From positions 4,960,001 through 5,024,000 of the forward strand of contig NZ_AP022593.1 of the NCBI RefSeq assembly GCF_010731815.2: 64,000 nucleotides of DNA. The letters are read 5' to 3'. Both the position numbers and the translations under genes were made by a program. The first letter of the stretch is position 1. The number at the start of each line of letters is the position of its first letter. Below the pieces are notes generated by a model. That model was not told the DNA's origin and did not search any database. It worked only from the letters and a program-made list of their open reading frames with translations. Below, piece by piece: positions 677 to 14,678 of the stretch. The DNA is from Mycolicibacterium arabiense. Lineage in GTDB: Bacteria > Actinomycetota > Actinomycetes > Mycobacteriales > Mycobacteriaceae.

Positions 677-1684
677 TCAGGCGGGTCCGGTGGCGAAGTG
701 CTCCGCGACGACGGCGGCTGCCAGCGGGTAGTCGCGCAGCGCCGCGCCGACGAGCCCGCGGAGTTCGGCGACGCAGGCGGGGTCGGCGCCCCGCCCGCGC
801 AGCAAGTCCTCGATCCACGCCGAGGTCTCGGACACGGGCCGCGGGTCGGCGGTGAGCACCGCGGCCGCCGCGGCGTGCAGCGTCTGGTTGAGCACGTCGA
901 CGACCTCGTCGTCGCTCAGGTTGACCGAACCGGTGCCGATCGCCGCGACCGACCATTGACGGCCCAGCTGATCGACCATCCTGCGGTGTTCGATCTCGAG
1001 CGCCGACTGCTCGGCGAGCGCCTCGCCCGGCAGCGCCGGTGCGGGCGCGACCACTGCGGGCAGCTCGCGCATCGCTCGAATGGCATCGTGCGCGTCGCGC
1101 GCCCACGCGGTGGCACCCAGGGTACGCGCCCGCGCGTCGTCGGGGCCGAACGCGGGTCCTCCGACCAGGATCGGCACTCCCGCAGCGGTACTCGCCTCGA
1201 TGAAGCGGCGTGACGTCGGCAGGGAGCCGAGGACCGAACAACTGACGGCGACGGCCTCGGGACCCAGTTCCTGCAGGTGCCGGTTCAGTCGCATCGGGCT
1301 GGTCGATGCGCCGAGGAGCGTGGTGTCCCAGCCGTCCGCCCGCAGGGCACAGTCAATGATCATCGCGGGCAGGGCATGCCATTCCTTCTCCGCGCATGCG
1401 ATGAGCGCGCCACCACGCGTCGGTGGGATCCGACGGACGTGGGCGGCGACCACCTTGGTGGCCGAGACGGCGAGCGCCGTGGCCGCATGTTCCTGCGCGA
1501 CGGTCCACTCACCACGTTGCCAGCGGGCGCCCACCTCCCGCTGCGACGCGGCGATGACGTCGGTCAGGACGGTCACGGGATCCTCACCCGCGGCCAGCAT
1601 GCGGTCGATCACCGCGGCGACGGTGCTGGCGTCGCCCGAGGCGATGGCGTCGTCGTAGGCGGAGGCGAGGGCGAGATCGCTCAC
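677..1684 (-). CDS. stand-alone cobalamin-binding protein, possible B12 photosensor
   Basis: 335 aa. Residues about 1-85 form a helical B12-binding cap and about 90-200 a Rossmann-like cobalamin domain (GGALIACAEKEWH, later VGGPAFG). W55 is followed by nine residues and then E65-H66, exactly the W-x9-EH signature of light-sensing CarH-type domains. H103 in EWHALP sits where the lower axial His of the E/DxHxxG motif lies, but the Gly is replaced by P106, and the residue after W55 is Gln rather than the His of CarH. There is no MerR HTH; the C-terminal ~110 residues are an unrecognised helical region. It starts 4 bp after the SpoIIE phosphatase gene, so the two are almost certainly one operon. 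Cofactor binding is likely by family; light sensing is inference. Confidence 0.85.
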   Translation of the reverse strand: MSDLALASAYDDAIASGDASTVAAVIDRMLAAGEDPVTVLTDVIAASQREVGARWQRGEWTVAQEHAATALAVSATKVVAAHVRRIPPTRGGALIACAEKEWHALPAMIIDCALRADGWDTTLLGASTSPMRLNRHLQELGPEAVAVSCSVLGSLPTSRRFIEASTAAGVPILVGGPAFGPDDARARTLGATAWARDAHDAIRAMRELPAVVAPAPALPGEALAEQSALEIEHRRMVDQLGRQWSVAAIGTGSVNLSDDEVVDVLNQTLHAAAAAVLTADPRPVSETSAWIEDLLRGRGADPACVAELRGLVGAALRDYPLAAAVVAEHFATGPA

Positions 1685-1688
1685 GTGC

Positions 1689-3014
1689 TCAATCCCCGCA
1701 CGTCACCGCGAGCAAGGCGATGTCGTCGTGGGCGCGGCTGTCGAGGTGCTCGATCACGCTGCGCTCGATGGCCTCGCAGACCACCTCGGGCGCGGCGCCG
1801 GCGTACGCGGGCAGCAGCCGGAGCAGTCGTTCGACGCCATACATGCCGTCGGCTCCGAACGCCTCGTCGATCCCGTCGGTGAACATCAGCAGGGTGTCGT
1901 TCGGCCGCAGCTCGATCTCGACGGAGGCGTACTCGACGTGCGCAATCATGCCCACCGCGGTACCGAACACGTCGACCTGTTCCACGCGGCCGTTGGCGCG
2001 CAACACGATTGGCGGGGGATGCCCGGCCGATGCGAGTTCGACGGTGATCCGCCCGTCATCGGAGCGGCGCAGGCGGGCGCACACCACGGTGACGAACTTG
2101 TCGGTGCCCGTCTCGTGCAGCACGGTGTTGAGCGCACCGAGCAGTGCGGTGGGTCGACGGTCGAACAGGCAGGCGGTGCGGATGCTCTGCCGGGCGCGGC
2201 CCGTGACGGCGGCGGCCTCCACGCCCTTGCCGCTGACGTCGCCGAGTGCCAGTAGCCAATCGTCGTCGGAGCCGTGAACGTCGTAGAAGTCGCCGCCGAT
2301 GTCGAGGTGTTCGGCCGCGGGCCGGTATAGCGCTGCCAGACGCACGCCGACGATGTCCGGCAGCGACGGTGGACGCAGGCCCCGTTGCAGCGTGCTGGCG
2401 ATGCGCGAGCTGTCCTCGTAGAGGCGCGCCGAGTCCAGCGCCAGCGCTGCCCGCTCTGCGACCTGCTCGGCGAGGGCGATGTCGTGGGCGTCGAAGCCTC
2501 GGCCTTGGCCGCGGACCAGGATCAGTGCGCCGACGGTCGAGCCGCGGGCCGTGAGCCCGAGGCCAACCACGTCGGCCGGGCGCAGTGCGGCGGCCTCGGC
2601 CGACAGCCGCGGGTGGGGTATCAGGGCAGCGAGTCCGTCGCCGACGACCGGGGTCTCGAAGACGCCGAGTTCGACGTGCAGCAGTTCGGTCCGTCCCGAT
2701 CGCATGACCCGGCCCAGCGCCTGGTCATACACCTGAGCCATGGGCACGATGTCGCTGAAGCCGTGCTCTGCACCGCCCAGTACGTGCAGCCCACCGGTGG
2801 TGCTGTCGGGGACGATGACGACCGCCCAGTCGGCGAGACCGGGTGTGATGAGGGTCAGCAGGCGGATGGCCGTGCGACGAAGGTTCAGCGACCCGGCCAG
2901 GCCGGTGCCGACTTGGTCGAGGAGTTCAGCACGATCGACGGTCGGGCCCGGGGCCACCGGCCCCCGCGGGTCGACTGGTTGATCGGTAATGGTCTGCTTG
3001 GGCAGCATGCCCAC
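1689..3014 (-). CDS. GAF-SpoIIE (PP2C-type) serine phosphatase, RsbU-like
   Basis: 441 aa. An N-terminal GAF-like sensor domain (about 40-190) precedes a SpoIIE/PP2C phosphatase domain (about 210-440). Metal-binding motifs are intact: IGGDFYD, LGDVSGKG, FTDGIDEA and the final HDDIALLAV. Enzymes of this family dephosphorylate STAS-domain anti-sigma antagonists and so release a stress sigma factor; two STAS genes lie 6-10 kb away. The gene is upstream of the B12-binding protein gene (4 bp gap), suggesting that protein feeds a signal to it. The ATG at 3014 is used; a second in-frame ATG follows two codons later. A TAAAAT hexamer on the minus strand near 3165-3175 is a possible -10, giving a long leader. 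Confidence 0.92.
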   Translation of the reverse strand: MGMLPKQTITDQPVDPRGPVAPGPTVDRAELLDQVGTGLAGSLNLRRTAIRLLTLITPGLADWAVVIVPDSTTGGLHVLGGAEHGFSDIVPMAQVYDQALGRVMRSGRTELLHVELGVFETPVVGDGLAALIPHPRLSAEAAALRPADVVGLGLTARGSTVGALILVRGQGRGFDAHDIALAEQVAERAALALDSARLYEDSSRIASTLQRGLRPPSLPDIVGVRLAALYRPAAEHLDIGGDFYDVHGSDDDWLLALGDVSGKGVEAAAVTGRARQSIRTACLFDRRPTALLGALNTVLHETGTDKFVTVVCARLRRSDDGRITVELASAGHPPPIVLRANGRVEQVDVFGTAVGMIAHVEYASVEIELRPNDTLLMFTDGIDEAFGADGMYGVERLLRLLPAYAGAAPEVVCEAIERSVIEHLDSRAHDDIALLAVTCGD

Positions 3015-8428: not shown

Positions 8429-9060
8429 CCGGTCGCCTGTCGGACGACTACTTCGACGAGATCTACGCTGCCGCAGCAGATCCCTGGAGCCTCGGGGAGC
8501 GCTGGTACGAGCAACGCAAGTACGCGATCACGCTGGCGATGCTGCCCTCCCCGCGCTATGAGCATGCCTTCGAGCCGGGATGCTCGGTGGGCGTGCTCAC
8601 CGACGCATTGGCCGCGCGGTGCGCCAAGGTGACTGCGACCGACGTCGCGGCGGCCGCCCTCGATGCCACCCGGGCACGTCTCGAACGCAGCGGCGCCGCT
8701 GGGCGGGTCGATCTGTTGCGGTCATCGCTCGACGAACGCTGGCCGCTCGACGGTACCGATCTCGTCGTGCTCTCGGAGGTGGCCTACTACTTCGAGGCGT
8801 CCGCGCTGCGGGACGTCTTGACGCGCGAGTGCCCGCGGCTCGACAGCGGTACGACCATCGTCGCGGCGCATTGGCGCTATGCCGTGGCGGACTACCCGAT
8901 GAGCGGCGACGAGGCCAACGAGGTGATCGCCGCGACGCCAGGCCTGCATCACTTGGCCCGGTACCGGGACGATGACGTGGTGATAGACGTGTTCACCGTG
9001 GGTGCGTCGGCGTCGGCGTCGGTGGCTGTGCGGACCGATGTGCCCGGTGCGGCGGGTTAG
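8425..9060 (+). CDS. SAM-dependent methyltransferase, NodS-like
   Basis: 211 aa. The N-terminal YFDEIYAAAADPWSLGERWYEQRKY segment (key residues D-P-W, W-Y-E-x-R-K-Y) is typical of NodS-type methyltransferases, followed by motif I EPGCSVGVLTDALA and the acidic ATDVAAAALD strand. NodS methylates the free amino group of a chitooligosaccharide after NodB removes the acetyl group; here a deacetylase gene directly precedes and overlaps (ATGA). N-methylation of a deacetylated sugar is the natural guess but is not proven. The stop overlaps the stop of the convergent STAS gene. Confidence 0.88.
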   Translation: MTGRLSDDYFDEIYAAAADPWSLGERWYEQRKYAITLAMLPSPRYEHAFEPGCSVGVLTDALAARCAKVTATDVAAAALDATRARLERSGAAGRVDLLRSSLDERWPLDGTDLVVLSEVAYYFEASALRDVLTRECPRLDSGTTIVAAHWRYAVADYPMSGDEANEVIAATPGLHHLARYRDDDVVIDVFTVGASASASVAVRTDVPGAAG

Positions 9061-9470
9061 ACGTGGATGAGCGTGCGCGTCGAGTTCGGCTTCGACGCGA
9101 CCAGTGCGTCGACCACTGAACTCACCGTCCGCAAGACTCCGTGCGGATCGCAGATCCGCAGCAGCCGCCTCACCTCGGGGCCGGCCACCAGCACGGGTGT
9201 GGCGTGGCGCTTGGCGCTCGCCGCGATGATCCGGTTGACCGCCCACAGCCCTTCCGTTCCGAAGAACGTCAATCCGCGCAAGTCCACGATCAGCGCCGAA
9301 TGTGGGTCGTCGATGGCTGCGACGTGGTCGACGAGCTGGCGCGCATTGGCGGCGTCGAGTTCGCCTGCGGCGTCGACCAACACCGTCGTGGGGTTCAGGC
9401 GCTCATCGCGAATGCAGAGGGCGCCGGGGCGAAGGGTGGCGGCCGGCGGGGCCGCGAGTGCTACCGACAT
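9057..9470 (-). CDS. STAS-domain anti-sigma factor antagonist (copy 1)
   Basis: 137 aa. One STAS domain (about 25-130) with ALIVDLRGLTFFGTEGLWAV; the phosphorylatable position is T72 rather than Ser. Proteins of this type, when unphosphorylated, sequester anti-sigma factors and free SigF-like sigma factors. It is paralogous to the gene at 12473-12907. The leader upstream is also shared with that copy, including an ATGGAGTTC at 9483-9475 that here is out of frame; the ATG at 9470 is therefore used, but the N-terminus may have suffered a one-base frameshift relative to the paralogue. Confidence 0.9.
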   Translation of the reverse strand: MSVALAAPPAATLRPGALCIRDERLNPTTVLVDAAGELDAANARQLVDHVAAIDDPHSALIVDLRGLTFFGTEGLWAVNRIIAASAKRHATPVLVAGPEVRRLLRICDPHGVLRTVSSVVDALVASKPNSTRTLIHV

Positions 9471-9748: not shown

Positions 9749-9774
9749 GTTTTCTGGTGCTGCGGTTTGGGTAT
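9749..9774 (+). promoter_or_regulatory. SigF-type promoter
   Basis: GTTT at 9749-9752, a 16-bp spacer and GGGTAT at 9769-9774 match the mycobacterial SigF consensus GTTT-N15/16-GGGTAT. It points to the small membrane-protein ORF that begins 40 bp downstream. Between 9601 and 9748 nothing else was recognised. Confidence 0.7.
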
Positions 9775-10622: not shown

Positions 10623-10628
10623 TCTAGG
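10623..10628. repeat. IS target-site duplication, left copy
   Basis: TCTAGG directly abutting the left IS end; the same six bases follow the right end at 11719-11724. CTAG is the core of the IS481 target. On the minus strand it supplies the TAG stop of the transposase and codon 2 of the HAD gene. Confidence 0.92.
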
Positions 10629-11613
10629 TGTACTGACCTGAGAGGTTAGGTACACGGTTGGCTGGTGGTTGACCGCCGAGTGCGGTGTGGCCGCGGTGAT
10701 GATTGTAGGTATGCAGCCAGCGCGGGTACTCCTCGCAGCGCTCCGCGTCACTGGTGTAGAGCCGCGCGTAGGCCCATTCGTCGGCCAGGGTGCGGTGGAA
10801 GCGCTCGACCTTGCCGTTGGTCTGCGGCCGGTACGGACGGGTTCGCCGGTGCTCGATATCGCCCAATGCGTCGCGGAACGCGTGCGATCGATAACAAGAT
10901 CCGTTGTCAGTCAATACCTTCCGCACATCTATGCCGTGCGTGACGAACCAGGCGTTGGCGCGCACCCAGAAGTCGGCTGCAGTGTCCTTGCGTTCATCGG
11001 TCAGCAGTTCGGAGTACGCCAGCCGTGAGTGCGCATCGATGGCGGTGTGGATGAAGTGATAACCGCGCACCGGATTGTGATACTTGGTCTGCACCCCCGA
11101 ACTCTTGTCGGCCTGCTTGTTGCGTTTCCCGGCGGCCAGACCAAGCATCCGCCAGCCTCCGCCGGCGGGGATCTTGCCCAGCTTCTTGACGTCGACGTGC
11201 ACGAGATCTCCACACGATGCGGATTCCATGCGGCGCACGACTCGGCCGGTAGCGCGGTCGAGCCACCGCAACCTCGCGATGCCGTAACGGCGCAGCACGT
11301 TGTGCACCGTGGAGACGTTGAGCCCCAGCAGGTAGGCGATCCTGGCCGGTCCCCAACGGCGGGTGACACGCACTCCGATGATGCGCCGCTCGGTGCGCGT
11401 CGGCGTGCGATTCGGGCTGTGATGCGGCCGCGAGCTGCGGTCGGACATTCCGGCCTCACCCTGCTCGCAGTAGCGGTCCCTCCAGCGTGCGGCGGTCGTC
11501 GCCGACACCTGGAAACGTTCGGCCGCACGTCGCAGCGGCCACCCGTCATCAACGACGCAACGAGCCAACCGCAGACGGCCGGTTTCGGACAAAGGGGCAT
11601 TACGGTGAACCAC
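10624..11613 (-). CDS. IS481-family transposase
   Basis: 329 aa, GTG start. An N-terminal helix-turn-helix region (WPLRRAAERFQVSATTAARW) precedes a DDE integrase core: DLVHVDVKKLGKI, VLTDNGSCYRS and PQTNGKVERFHRTL. The last codons read GQYT and then TAG; the A of the ACC codon is the last base of the IS, and CC plus the TAG stop come from the duplicated target. The transposase therefore takes its stop codon from the target site. No frameshift or internal stop is seen. Confidence 0.95.
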   Translation of the reverse strand: MVHRNAPLSETGRLRLARCVVDDGWPLRRAAERFQVSATTAARWRDRYCEQGEAGMSDRSSRPHHSPNRTPTRTERRIIGVRVTRRWGPARIAYLLGLNVSTVHNVLRRYGIARLRWLDRATGRVVRRMESASCGDLVHVDVKKLGKIPAGGGWRMLGLAAGKRNKQADKSSGVQTKYHNPVRGYHFIHTAIDAHSRLAYSELLTDERKDTAADFWVRANAWFVTHGIDVRKVLTDNGSCYRSHAFRDALGDIEHRRTRPYRPQTNGKVERFHRTLADEWAYARLYTSDAERCEEYPRWLHTYNHHRGHTALGGQPPANRVPNLSGQYT

Positions 11614-11807: not shown

Positions 11808-11832
11808 GTTTTGACGGAACGGCCGCGGGTAT
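11808..11832 (+). promoter_or_regulatory. SigF-type promoter of usfY
   Basis: GTTT at 11808-11811, 15-bp spacer, GGGTAT at 11827-11832, matching the mycobacterial SigF consensus. It lies 54 bp before the usfY ATG. usfY genes are known members of the SigF regulon. Confidence 0.78.
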
Positions 11833-12208: not shown

Positions 12209-12544
12209 ATGGCGAGAGAACGTTCCAAGAAGAGCTACTGGATGCCATTGCTAGGACTGTCGTCGGTCATCGCCGGCGTGGTCGCCGTCGGTCTAATGCT
12301 GACTGCGGCGGGCGGCGGGGCGGGGTGGGCTTCGCCAGTCGTACTGACCGTGCTCTCCGTCGTGCTGATCGTCGGCGGGATATGGCTGTTCGCTTCCGGC
12401 GGCAAGGGTCAGGGCGGCTGGCGCCAGGCCAAGCTGGATCGCGAACAGGAACGTGCGTATCGCGACGAATTCTCAGCCCCGGGGGACCAACCTGAGGTGA
12501 GTCGGTGGCGGGGCCGCCGCCGCGTTGATCGCAGCCTCGAGTGA
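12209..12544 (+). CDS. small two-helix membrane protein
   Basis: 111 aa, 10 bp after usfY and probably cotranscribed from its SigF promoter. A basic N-terminus (MARERSKKSYW) is followed by two transmembrane helices (about 12-35 and 43-63) and a hydrophilic Arg/Glu-rich tail. The last 24 codons overlap the 3' end of the convergent STAS gene (72 bp), so the two messages can pair. Family not recognised. Confidence 0.75.
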   Translation: MARERSKKSYWMPLLGLSSVIAGVVAVGLMLTAAGGGAGWASPVVLTVLSVVLIVGGIWLFASGGKGQGGWRQAKLDREQERAYRDEFSAPGDQPEVSRWRGRRRVDRSLE

Positions 12545-12907
12545 TCGAGCGACCGGCAGGCCTCCCGCCGGGTCGCAGATCCGCAGTATCCGGTCCACCT
12601 CCGAACCGGACACCACCACCAGAGTGACCCCTTGCCGTGAGCACGTCACGTTGATGCGGTGCAGGACCGAAAAACCCTGCGTGCCGAAGAACGTCAGCTC
12701 GCGCAGATCCAGGACGAGCTTTCCCGCGTCGCCCAGGTTGGATTCGACGTAGGCCGAGAGGTTCGACGCATTGGCGGCGTCGATCTCTCCGGCCACGGCG
12801 TGCAGCACCATCGACGTGCCGATGGGGCAGGAGGTGAAGGTCGCCTGGTGTGGACGGACGGGCGCGCCACGGGTGGCATTGGGTGCGACGGACACAGTGA
12901 ACTCCAT
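12473..12907 (-). CDS. STAS-domain anti-sigma factor antagonist (copy 2)
   Basis: 144 aa, starting ATGGAGTTC. The STAS core reads KLVLDLRELTFFGTQGFSVL with T76 at the phospho-acceptor position; the C-terminal VSGSEVDRILRICDPAGG closely matches VAGPEVRRLLRICDPHG in the copy at 9057-9470. Expected role: partner-switching control of a stress sigma factor together with an RsbW-type kinase and a SpoIIE phosphatase such as the one at 1689-3014. No kinase gene is present in the window. Confidence 0.9.
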   Translation of the reverse strand: MEFTVSVAPNATRGAPVRPHQATFTSCPIGTSMVLHAVAGEIDAANASNLSAYVESNLGDAGKLVLDLRELTFFGTQGFSVLHRINVTCSRQGVTLVVVSGSEVDRILRICDPAGGLPVARSLEAAINAAAAPPPTHLRLVPRG

Positions 12908-13127: not shown

Positions 13128-13153
13128 GTTTTCTCGACCGACGCCTCGGGTAT
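13128..13153 (+). promoter_or_regulatory. SigF-type promoter
   Basis: GTTT at 13128-13131, 16-bp spacer, GGGTAT at 13148-13153. It faces the membrane-anchored protein gene starting at 13187 and is the third match of this type within 3.4 kb. Confidence 0.75.

Positions 13154-13670: not shown

Positions 13671-14677
<1,007 letters not shown>

Positions 14678-14678
<1 letters not shown>

Follow-up and report, generated by a model that had tools for sequence, protein, structure and literature searches.

How might a B12-binding protein that lacks a DNA-binding domain pass a light signal on to gene expression? The question is raised by two genes in a 64,000-nucleotide stretch of Mycolicibacterium arabiense (contig NZ_AP022593.1, positions 4,960,001 to 5,024,000), here called the window, whose own numbering is used throughout. 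The first gene (677..1684, minus strand, GTG start) encodes a photocobilin-family protein of 335 amino acids. The second (1689..3014, minus strand) encodes a 441-amino-acid GAF-SpoIIE (PP2C) phosphatase of the RsbU/RsbP type. A gap of 4 base pairs (1685..1688) separates the phosphatase stop from the photocobilin start. An earlier reading of the bare sequence, referred to as the original prediction, had described both open reading frames, 4 bases apart on the same strand, and W55, Q56, E65, H66, H103 and P106 are found at the positions it gave.

The photocobilin-family sensor and its dedicated phosphatase probably, though by no means certainly, serve a SigF-type partner-switching system as its input arm. 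The computed basis consists of the sequence and fold of the photocobilin, the intact adenosyl-pocket, axial-ligand and phosphatase Asp residues, the close co-inheritance of the two genes, and the STAS, anti-sigma and SigF genes that adjoin the pair in some relatives. Judging from this genetic neighbourhood, SigF partner switching is the likely output of the pair, as the original prediction had also proposed.

Fold and adenosyl pocket of the photocobilin

Pfam assigns residues 9-72 of the 335-residue protein to B12-binding_2 and residues 93-201 to B12-binding. It leaves unnamed the roughly 110 residues past the B12 domain, a helical domain (residues ~220-330) whose counterpart in alignments is the globin (bilin) domain of photocobilins with known structures. 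The original prediction had missed this globin domain, and its description of a stand-alone cobalamin domain was wrong. A sequence search of the PDB returned 8j2w/8j2x (E 1e-45) and 8j2y (2e-36). The AlphaFold2 model has a mean predicted local distance difference test (pLDDT) score of 94.6 and a predicted template modelling (pTM) score of 0.92, and when its fold was compared, photocobilins matched across 320-328 residues.

On the combined evidence of Pfam, alignment and model, a four-helix bundle with the adenosyl pocket (residues 3-83; 1436..1678, minus strand) holds W55 (1520-1522), Q56 and E65-H66 (1487-1492). It is followed by a Rossmann-like B12 domain (residues 92-210; 1055..1411, minus strand) with P106 and the axial ligand H103 (1376-1378, minus strand), which aligns with His108 of SasPcob. 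The globin (photoglobin) domain (residues 220-330; 695..1027, minus strand), placed by alignments, model and fold, is C-terminal to the four-helix bundle and Rossmann fold, as is the arrangement in photocobilins. The Trp/EH and E/DxH motifs are spaced like W61, E71 and H72 of SasPcob. As far as sequence and model can tell, the protein is a photocobilin, a light sensor of the B12-plus-globin type, and is ordinary in fold.

SasPcob of Saccharothrix syringae (PDB 8J2W/8J2X) is likewise a stand-alone protein with the order four-helix bundle, Rossmann, globin, and its W61, Q62, E71, H72, H108, P111 and W296 are all matched in the window protein. AbDPcob (PDB 8J2Y), a fusion of a photocobilin with a diguanylate cyclase, shares the fold and differs in that its output domain is fused and not a separate phosphatase. 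The original prediction had compared the protein with CarH. This was one step off: the CarH-like adenosyl pocket and the lack of a DNA-binding part stand, but the closest kin is a photocobilin. Like CarH/LitR proteins, the window protein has the W-x9-EH pocket and an axial His. Unlike them, it has no MerR domain, carries an extra globin domain and has Gln56 behind the Trp, where TtCarH has H132, the second His of the light state. Pfam gave no match to helix-turn-helix families in the 335-residue protein. Membership of CarH/LitR was rejected, as there is no MerR or helix-turn-helix domain and the NCBIfam CarH model scores 47.7 bits against a cut-off of 400.

Gln56 and Pro106 had been taken as signs of another sensing mechanism. 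They require none, because both residues recur at these positions in the photoactive SasPcob, whose light state is water- or hydroxide-ligated on the cobalt and not bis-His (PMC10979010). An alignment of 121 rows (the query and the best 120 of 482 protein-search matches) has W55, E65, H66, E101, H103 and P106 invariant in 121/121 rows. The conservation of W55, E65 and H66 among relatives, on which the original prediction depended, was thus found. Position 56 is Gln in 109 of the 121 rows and His in two. Two other photocobilin relatives, L177 and L189, align without the axial His, and L177 also without the pocket Trp; possibly they no longer bind cobalamin in the usual way.

The bilin site and the pigment sensed

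The real oddity of the window protein, absent from the original prediction, is the loss of the bilin-holding Asp. In SasPcob, biliverdin is held by Asp270 and Trp296 (PMC10979010). The window protein has Val264 (893-895, minus strand) at the Asp270 position and Trp290 (815-817, minus strand) at the Trp296 position, and His137, Phe293 and Tyr283 of SasPcob are replaced by Arg, Thr and Leu.

Loci were collected via the photocobilin alone. The 139 loci comprise the best 80 of 469 relatives in named genomes, 30 places from the genus and 29 new places from the class; they include places fetched twice (for example, L001 and L112) and, as nearest relatives, form a biased set. To lessen this bias, 20 further class matches, mostly weaker, were fetched. 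The class sample covers 50 of the 77 listed places. The remainder consists of the 24 weakest, the second copy in each of two tandem pairs, and one place that was already present as L025. Merging exact duplicates reduced the 139 loci to 125 distinct sequences, which together with SasPcob, AbPcob and the window protein form a residue table of 128 rows.

Of the 128 rows, 67, SasPcob among them, have Asp270 (clade B), and 54 have V, A, T, C or I at this position (clade A; 53 distinct, as the window protein is present twice, as win_P0001 and L001). The other seven are fragments (L014, L029, L030, L033) or outliers (L080, L082, AbPcob). The clades were first split on residue 270, and the split was then tested on a tree. 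In a tree built quickly from 122 rows, the 53 rows of clade A correspond to one change at 270 with a support of 99, and clade B requires two changes; the root of this tree is unsure because the long branch of AbDPcob joined clade A. Further columns separate the clades (from B to A): 105 (G to R/K), 137 (H to R), 277 (F to A), 283 (Y to L) and 293 (F to T). At 277, SasPcob has His, and clade B generally has Phe. W61, E71 and H72 (SasPcob numbering) are kept in 54/54 clade A rows. Loss of Asp270 is not special to clade A, since the residue is absent from nine of the 20 added class places, most of them distant members and four of them adjoining SpoIIE. A loss unique to clade A is also ruled out by AbDPcob, L080 and L082, which lack it as well.

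Our reading is that clade A gave up tight biliverdin binding and kept the binding of adenosylcobalamin (AdoCbl), as the residues at the two pigment sites suggest. With the bilin-holding Asp lost, clade A most likely works without biliverdin, and it would then respond to green and shorter wavelengths, the AdoCbl band, and not to red light. Two points weigh against this: clade A keeps the Trp and its entire globin domain, and AbDPcob, with His for Asp270, still binds biliverdin, although weakly (PMC10979010). The light-responsive motifs of SignatureFinder are GxxW, EH, GxxH and GxxxP (PMC11796333, in part). The window protein has GxxW and EH; the Gly of GxxH is replaced by Lys, and the Pro stands one position later than in GxxxP, a Pro at the usual place being present in 13 of the 54 clade A rows. 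The altered GxxH and GxxxP speak against simply transferring the label "light-responsive" to this protein.

An alternative that we regard as unlikely, yet worth keeping in view, is that the same module senses cobalamin status. The difference between AdoCbl and other cobalamins would then set the phosphatase state, and photolysis would be incidental. This would explain why the adenosyl pocket is intact, yet two elements of the light signature and the bilin Asp are altered, and it agrees with the presence of a PF01923 cobalamin adenosyltransferase in the window's genome. The kept adenosyl pocket, however, fits cobalamin-status sensing and light sensing alike.

A normal two-pigment photocobilin, with the bilin in a remodelled globin pocket via W290 and R132 (for His137) and with red light sensed too, is improbable. 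W290 is kept in 120 of the 121 alignment rows, the remaining row having a gap; Arg at 137 could still contact a bilin propionate; the globin domain is retained in full; and AbDPcob not only binds some biliverdin with its His but still responds to red light (PMC10979010). AbDPcob, a poor binder of biliverdin, has kept Phe293. Clade A, by contrast, has V, A, T, C or I for Asp270 in 54/54 rows and has mostly exchanged F293 for T, Y283 for L and the residue at 277 for A. No PF01126 heme oxygenase was found in the window's genome by a search that did not cover heme-degrading enzymes of the MhuD/IsdG type. This absence speaks only weakly for a bilin-free clade A, since heme oxygenase occurs in 3 of 14 genomes with clade A, 5 of 14 with clade B and 15 of 36 with neither (Fisher p 0.21 and 1.0; two of the 23 matches, G032 and G058, are weak). 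Uncorrelated with either clade, it was rejected as a marker of bilin use.

The phosphatase and its pairing with the photocobilin

Pfam finds SpoIIE (7.8e-46) and GAF (2.3e-05) in the 441-residue protein, which bears out the GAF-SpoIIE partner of the RsbU type, in an operon-like pair, that had been proposed for this locus. The Asp columns D242, D259 and D380 are kept in 136 of 137 partners, the single gap being L080, a 43-residue fragment at a contig edge, and D431 is kept in 137/137. With a SpoIIE domain and the predicted metal-binding Asp residues, the protein qualifies as a SpoIIE/RsbU-type PP2C phosphatase.

The genes around the photocobilins were fetched over at most 6 kilobases (kb) on each side, or about 2.5 kb for the 20 added class places. 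A SpoIIE gene lies immediately upstream on the same strand in 136 of the 139 loci. With L080, where the contig start cuts the locus and leaves the last 43 phosphatase residues visible, the count is 137. The two loci without a seen pairing, L028 and L029, start at a contig end. The pairing spans many actinobacterial genera. It is not universal for photocobilins, as ten of the 20 added class places have a SpoIIE neighbour and ten have none within ~2.5 kb (the upstream side being cut by a contig end in at least one of these, L181); over the class sample, 40 of the 50 examined places have one.

In a survey of 60 genus genomes, orthologues of the clade A photocobilin and of the phosphatase occur in the same 14 genomes and in none of the other 46 (Fisher p 6e-14, uncorrected for shared ancestry). 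The co-conservation on which the original prediction hinged was therefore found, both by genome and by adjacency. Sequence identities of the partners are correlated (r 0.88 for 53 clade A rows and 0.93 for 65 clade B rows; 0/500 shuffles as high), although a high r is also expected from shared ancestry alone. That the two genes are neighbours and co-transcribed while the photocobilin acts on a protein other than the phosphatase is very improbable: operons often contain parts that never touch, and ten of the 20 added, more distant photocobilins have no phosphatase nearby, but order and strand are kept in 137/139 loci across many genera and co-occurrence in the genus sample is complete.

Two places, G214:C1:3689532-3691644 and G074:C52:63306-65418, have tandem photocobilin genes, two behind one SpoIIE gene. 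A scan of viral contigs gave no relatives.

Partner switching as the likely output

STAS, anti-sigma-type kinase and SigF-like genes in the flanks were called with profiles built by script, and these families were confirmed with Pfam and NCBIfam on samples from L045, L066, L094 and L106. Among the 80 named loci, the flanks contain STAS in 52, an anti-sigma-type kinase in 24 (some partial or within a hybrid kinase) and a SigF-like factor in nine. Among loci with at least 700 bases of room, those with a STAS gene no more than 400 bases downstream of the photocobilin number 43 of 63 in clade B and 10 of 53 in clade A (44 and 10 without the room requirement). The motif D-S-x-G, which we take to be the phosphorylation motif of these proteins, is present in 54 of the 57 STAS genes that follow a photocobilin.

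Seven Actinokineospora loci and Amycolatopsis L073 have, on one strand and in this order, a sigma factor, STAS, an anti-sigma kinase, SpoIIE, the photocobilin and STAS. The seven have an extra kinase-type match before the sigma gene, partial in some. The parts of L066 were confirmed by Pfam and NCBIfam; its sigma factor reaches 255.6, above the SigBFG cut-off of 234.35. By eye, a WhiB-like motif lies on the opposite strand between the sigma gene and the first STAS gene in five of the seven (L050, L054, L066, L069, L072). Streptomyces L094 (clade B), sampled with family models, has four such genes downstream: STAS, an anti-sigma kinase, a second STAS and a SigF-like factor. All four kinds of partner-switching component are found together at eight named clade A loci and at L094.

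In the mycobacteria, 13 named clade A loci carry a STAS gene upstream in divergent orientation, and five of them add an anti-sigma kinase and a second STAS gene. Among the named mycobacterial loci, none has a SigF-like factor in its flanks, so SigF linkage as a general mycobacterial trait was rejected. At L035 (7045-11169), an open reading frame of 1374 amino acids with SpoIIE-like and anti-sigma-type kinase matches lies downstream of the pair and is followed by a STAS gene; the same SpoIIE-like and kinase matches recur downstream at L036-L039 and L044.

The window's genome has the phosphatase, STAS proteins, anti-sigma kinases and SigB/F/G factors, scattered and not in one cluster. It has seven SpoIIE places, eleven STAS places (two inside the window), 24 HATPase_c_2 matches (14 over the cut-off, with plain histidine kinases among them) and three SigB/F/G factors over the cut-off, one of them 6.4 kb from the photocobilin. 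In the sister species such a neighbour lies 9.4 kb from the photocobilin, and M. sediminis has none; positions beyond the flanks were compared for these two species. Each STAS protein of the window may be an antagonist substrate. One (9057..9470, minus strand; Pfam STAS 4.9e-08) lies 6 kb upstream of the pair. The other (12473..12907, minus strand; 4.1e-11) lies 9.5 kb upstream and is 37-40% identical to STAS proteins that adjoin the pair in other mycobacteria. In many STAS proteins the site reads DS(S)G; these two have FFGTEG and FFGTQG, respectively, which would make Thr the phospho-site, if it is used. A window scan with the pattern GTTT-N14-18-GGGTA, presumably that of SigF-type promoters, gave three matches against 0.2 expected by shuffling, all near the two STAS genes (9749-9773, 11808-11831 and 13128-13152, plus strand) and none upstream of the pair.

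Judged by eye, the open reading frame 10624-11613 (minus strand), which lies between the two STAS genes, resembles an IS481-type transposase; another, 13680-14678 (plus strand), resembles a cyclic-nucleotide-binding domain fused to an acetyltransferase. Elsewhere in this genome, L165 has an open reading frame of 1411 amino acids in which histidine kinase, receiver, PAS, SpoIIE and HATPase domains are joined, and also a STAS gene.

In the mechanism we propose, the photocobilin would bind AdoCbl in the dark and form a head-to-tail dimer via the W55 and E65-H66 pocket. Light, or the exchange of AdoCbl for another cobalamin, would remove the adenosyl group and open the dimer, and the changed photocobilin surface would act on the GAF domain or linker of the SpoIIE phosphatase. 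That adenosyl loss may alter this contact is suggested by analogy to AbDPcob and SasPcob. In AbDPcob, light raises the turnover of the output enzyme more than 10-fold, and SasPcob in its light state activates a separate enzyme, apparently by protein contact (PMC10979010). The phosphatase would then dephosphorylate a STAS antagonist, which would draw the anti-sigma kinase off a SigF-like factor. These downstream steps are modelled on RsfR-RsfB-SigF of M. smegmatis, where RsfR, a PP2C phosphatase, governs the SigF antagonist RsfB (PMC10950880, in part). The sign of the effect, activation or inhibition, is left unpredicted; that of SasPcob flipped with versus without biliverdin in the published test (PMC10979010).

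RsbU/RsbP and RsfSR of M. smegmatis likewise place a sensor-controlled SpoIIE/PP2C phosphatase before a STAS antagonist and a SigB/SigF-type factor (PMC10950880, in part). Their inputs are a stressosome, an alpha/beta-hydrolase partner or a histidine kinase, whereas here the input would be a photocobilin and GAF. YtvA, a LOV protein of Bacillus subtilis, also passes light into a partner-switching stress sigma factor (PMC4844311, in part), but it uses a flavin and blue light within the stressosome, with no B12 and no phosphatase partner.

To some extent at least, the association of photocobilins with STAS and SpoIIE proteins was known before, since SasPcob was predicted from interaction networks to meet STAS, SpoIIE and PP2C proteins (PMC10979010). 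The co-inheritance counts, the SigF neighbourhoods and the loss of the bilin site in a phosphatase-paired clade were not found in the literature searched. The function of stand-alone photocobilins has been called "less clear" (PMC10979010), and the pairing with one phosphatase, together with the SigF/anti-sigma/STAS cluster in Actinokineospora, offers a concrete, testable partner and output. The window pair is an informative variant in the second pigment site, with a strong and testable genetic pairing.

Both clades occur in four of the 60 genus genomes (G004, G010, G019, G042), each copy with its own phosphatase, and in the class sample G301 and G342 hold clade A as well as Asp270-bearing photocobilins. 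In G010, the Asp270-bearing photocobilin lies in pieces at contig ends. Tentatively, and with considerable doubt, Actinobacteria may possess a light-gated photocobilin-phosphatase switch with two spectral channels, clade B with bilin (all visible light) and clade A free of bilin (AdoCbl band). If so, mycobacteria with both clades could tell green-rich from red-rich light and signal this to SigF. In clade A, nature would then have supplied a photocobilin free of bilin, which could help to tell the roles of the two pigments apart and possibly serve as a green-only optogenetic part. If the proposed output is true, light sensed through B12 would feed into a stress sigma factor of the SigF type. 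In M. smegmatis, this class has an effect on pigment and on resistance to oxidative stress (PMC4694148, in part).
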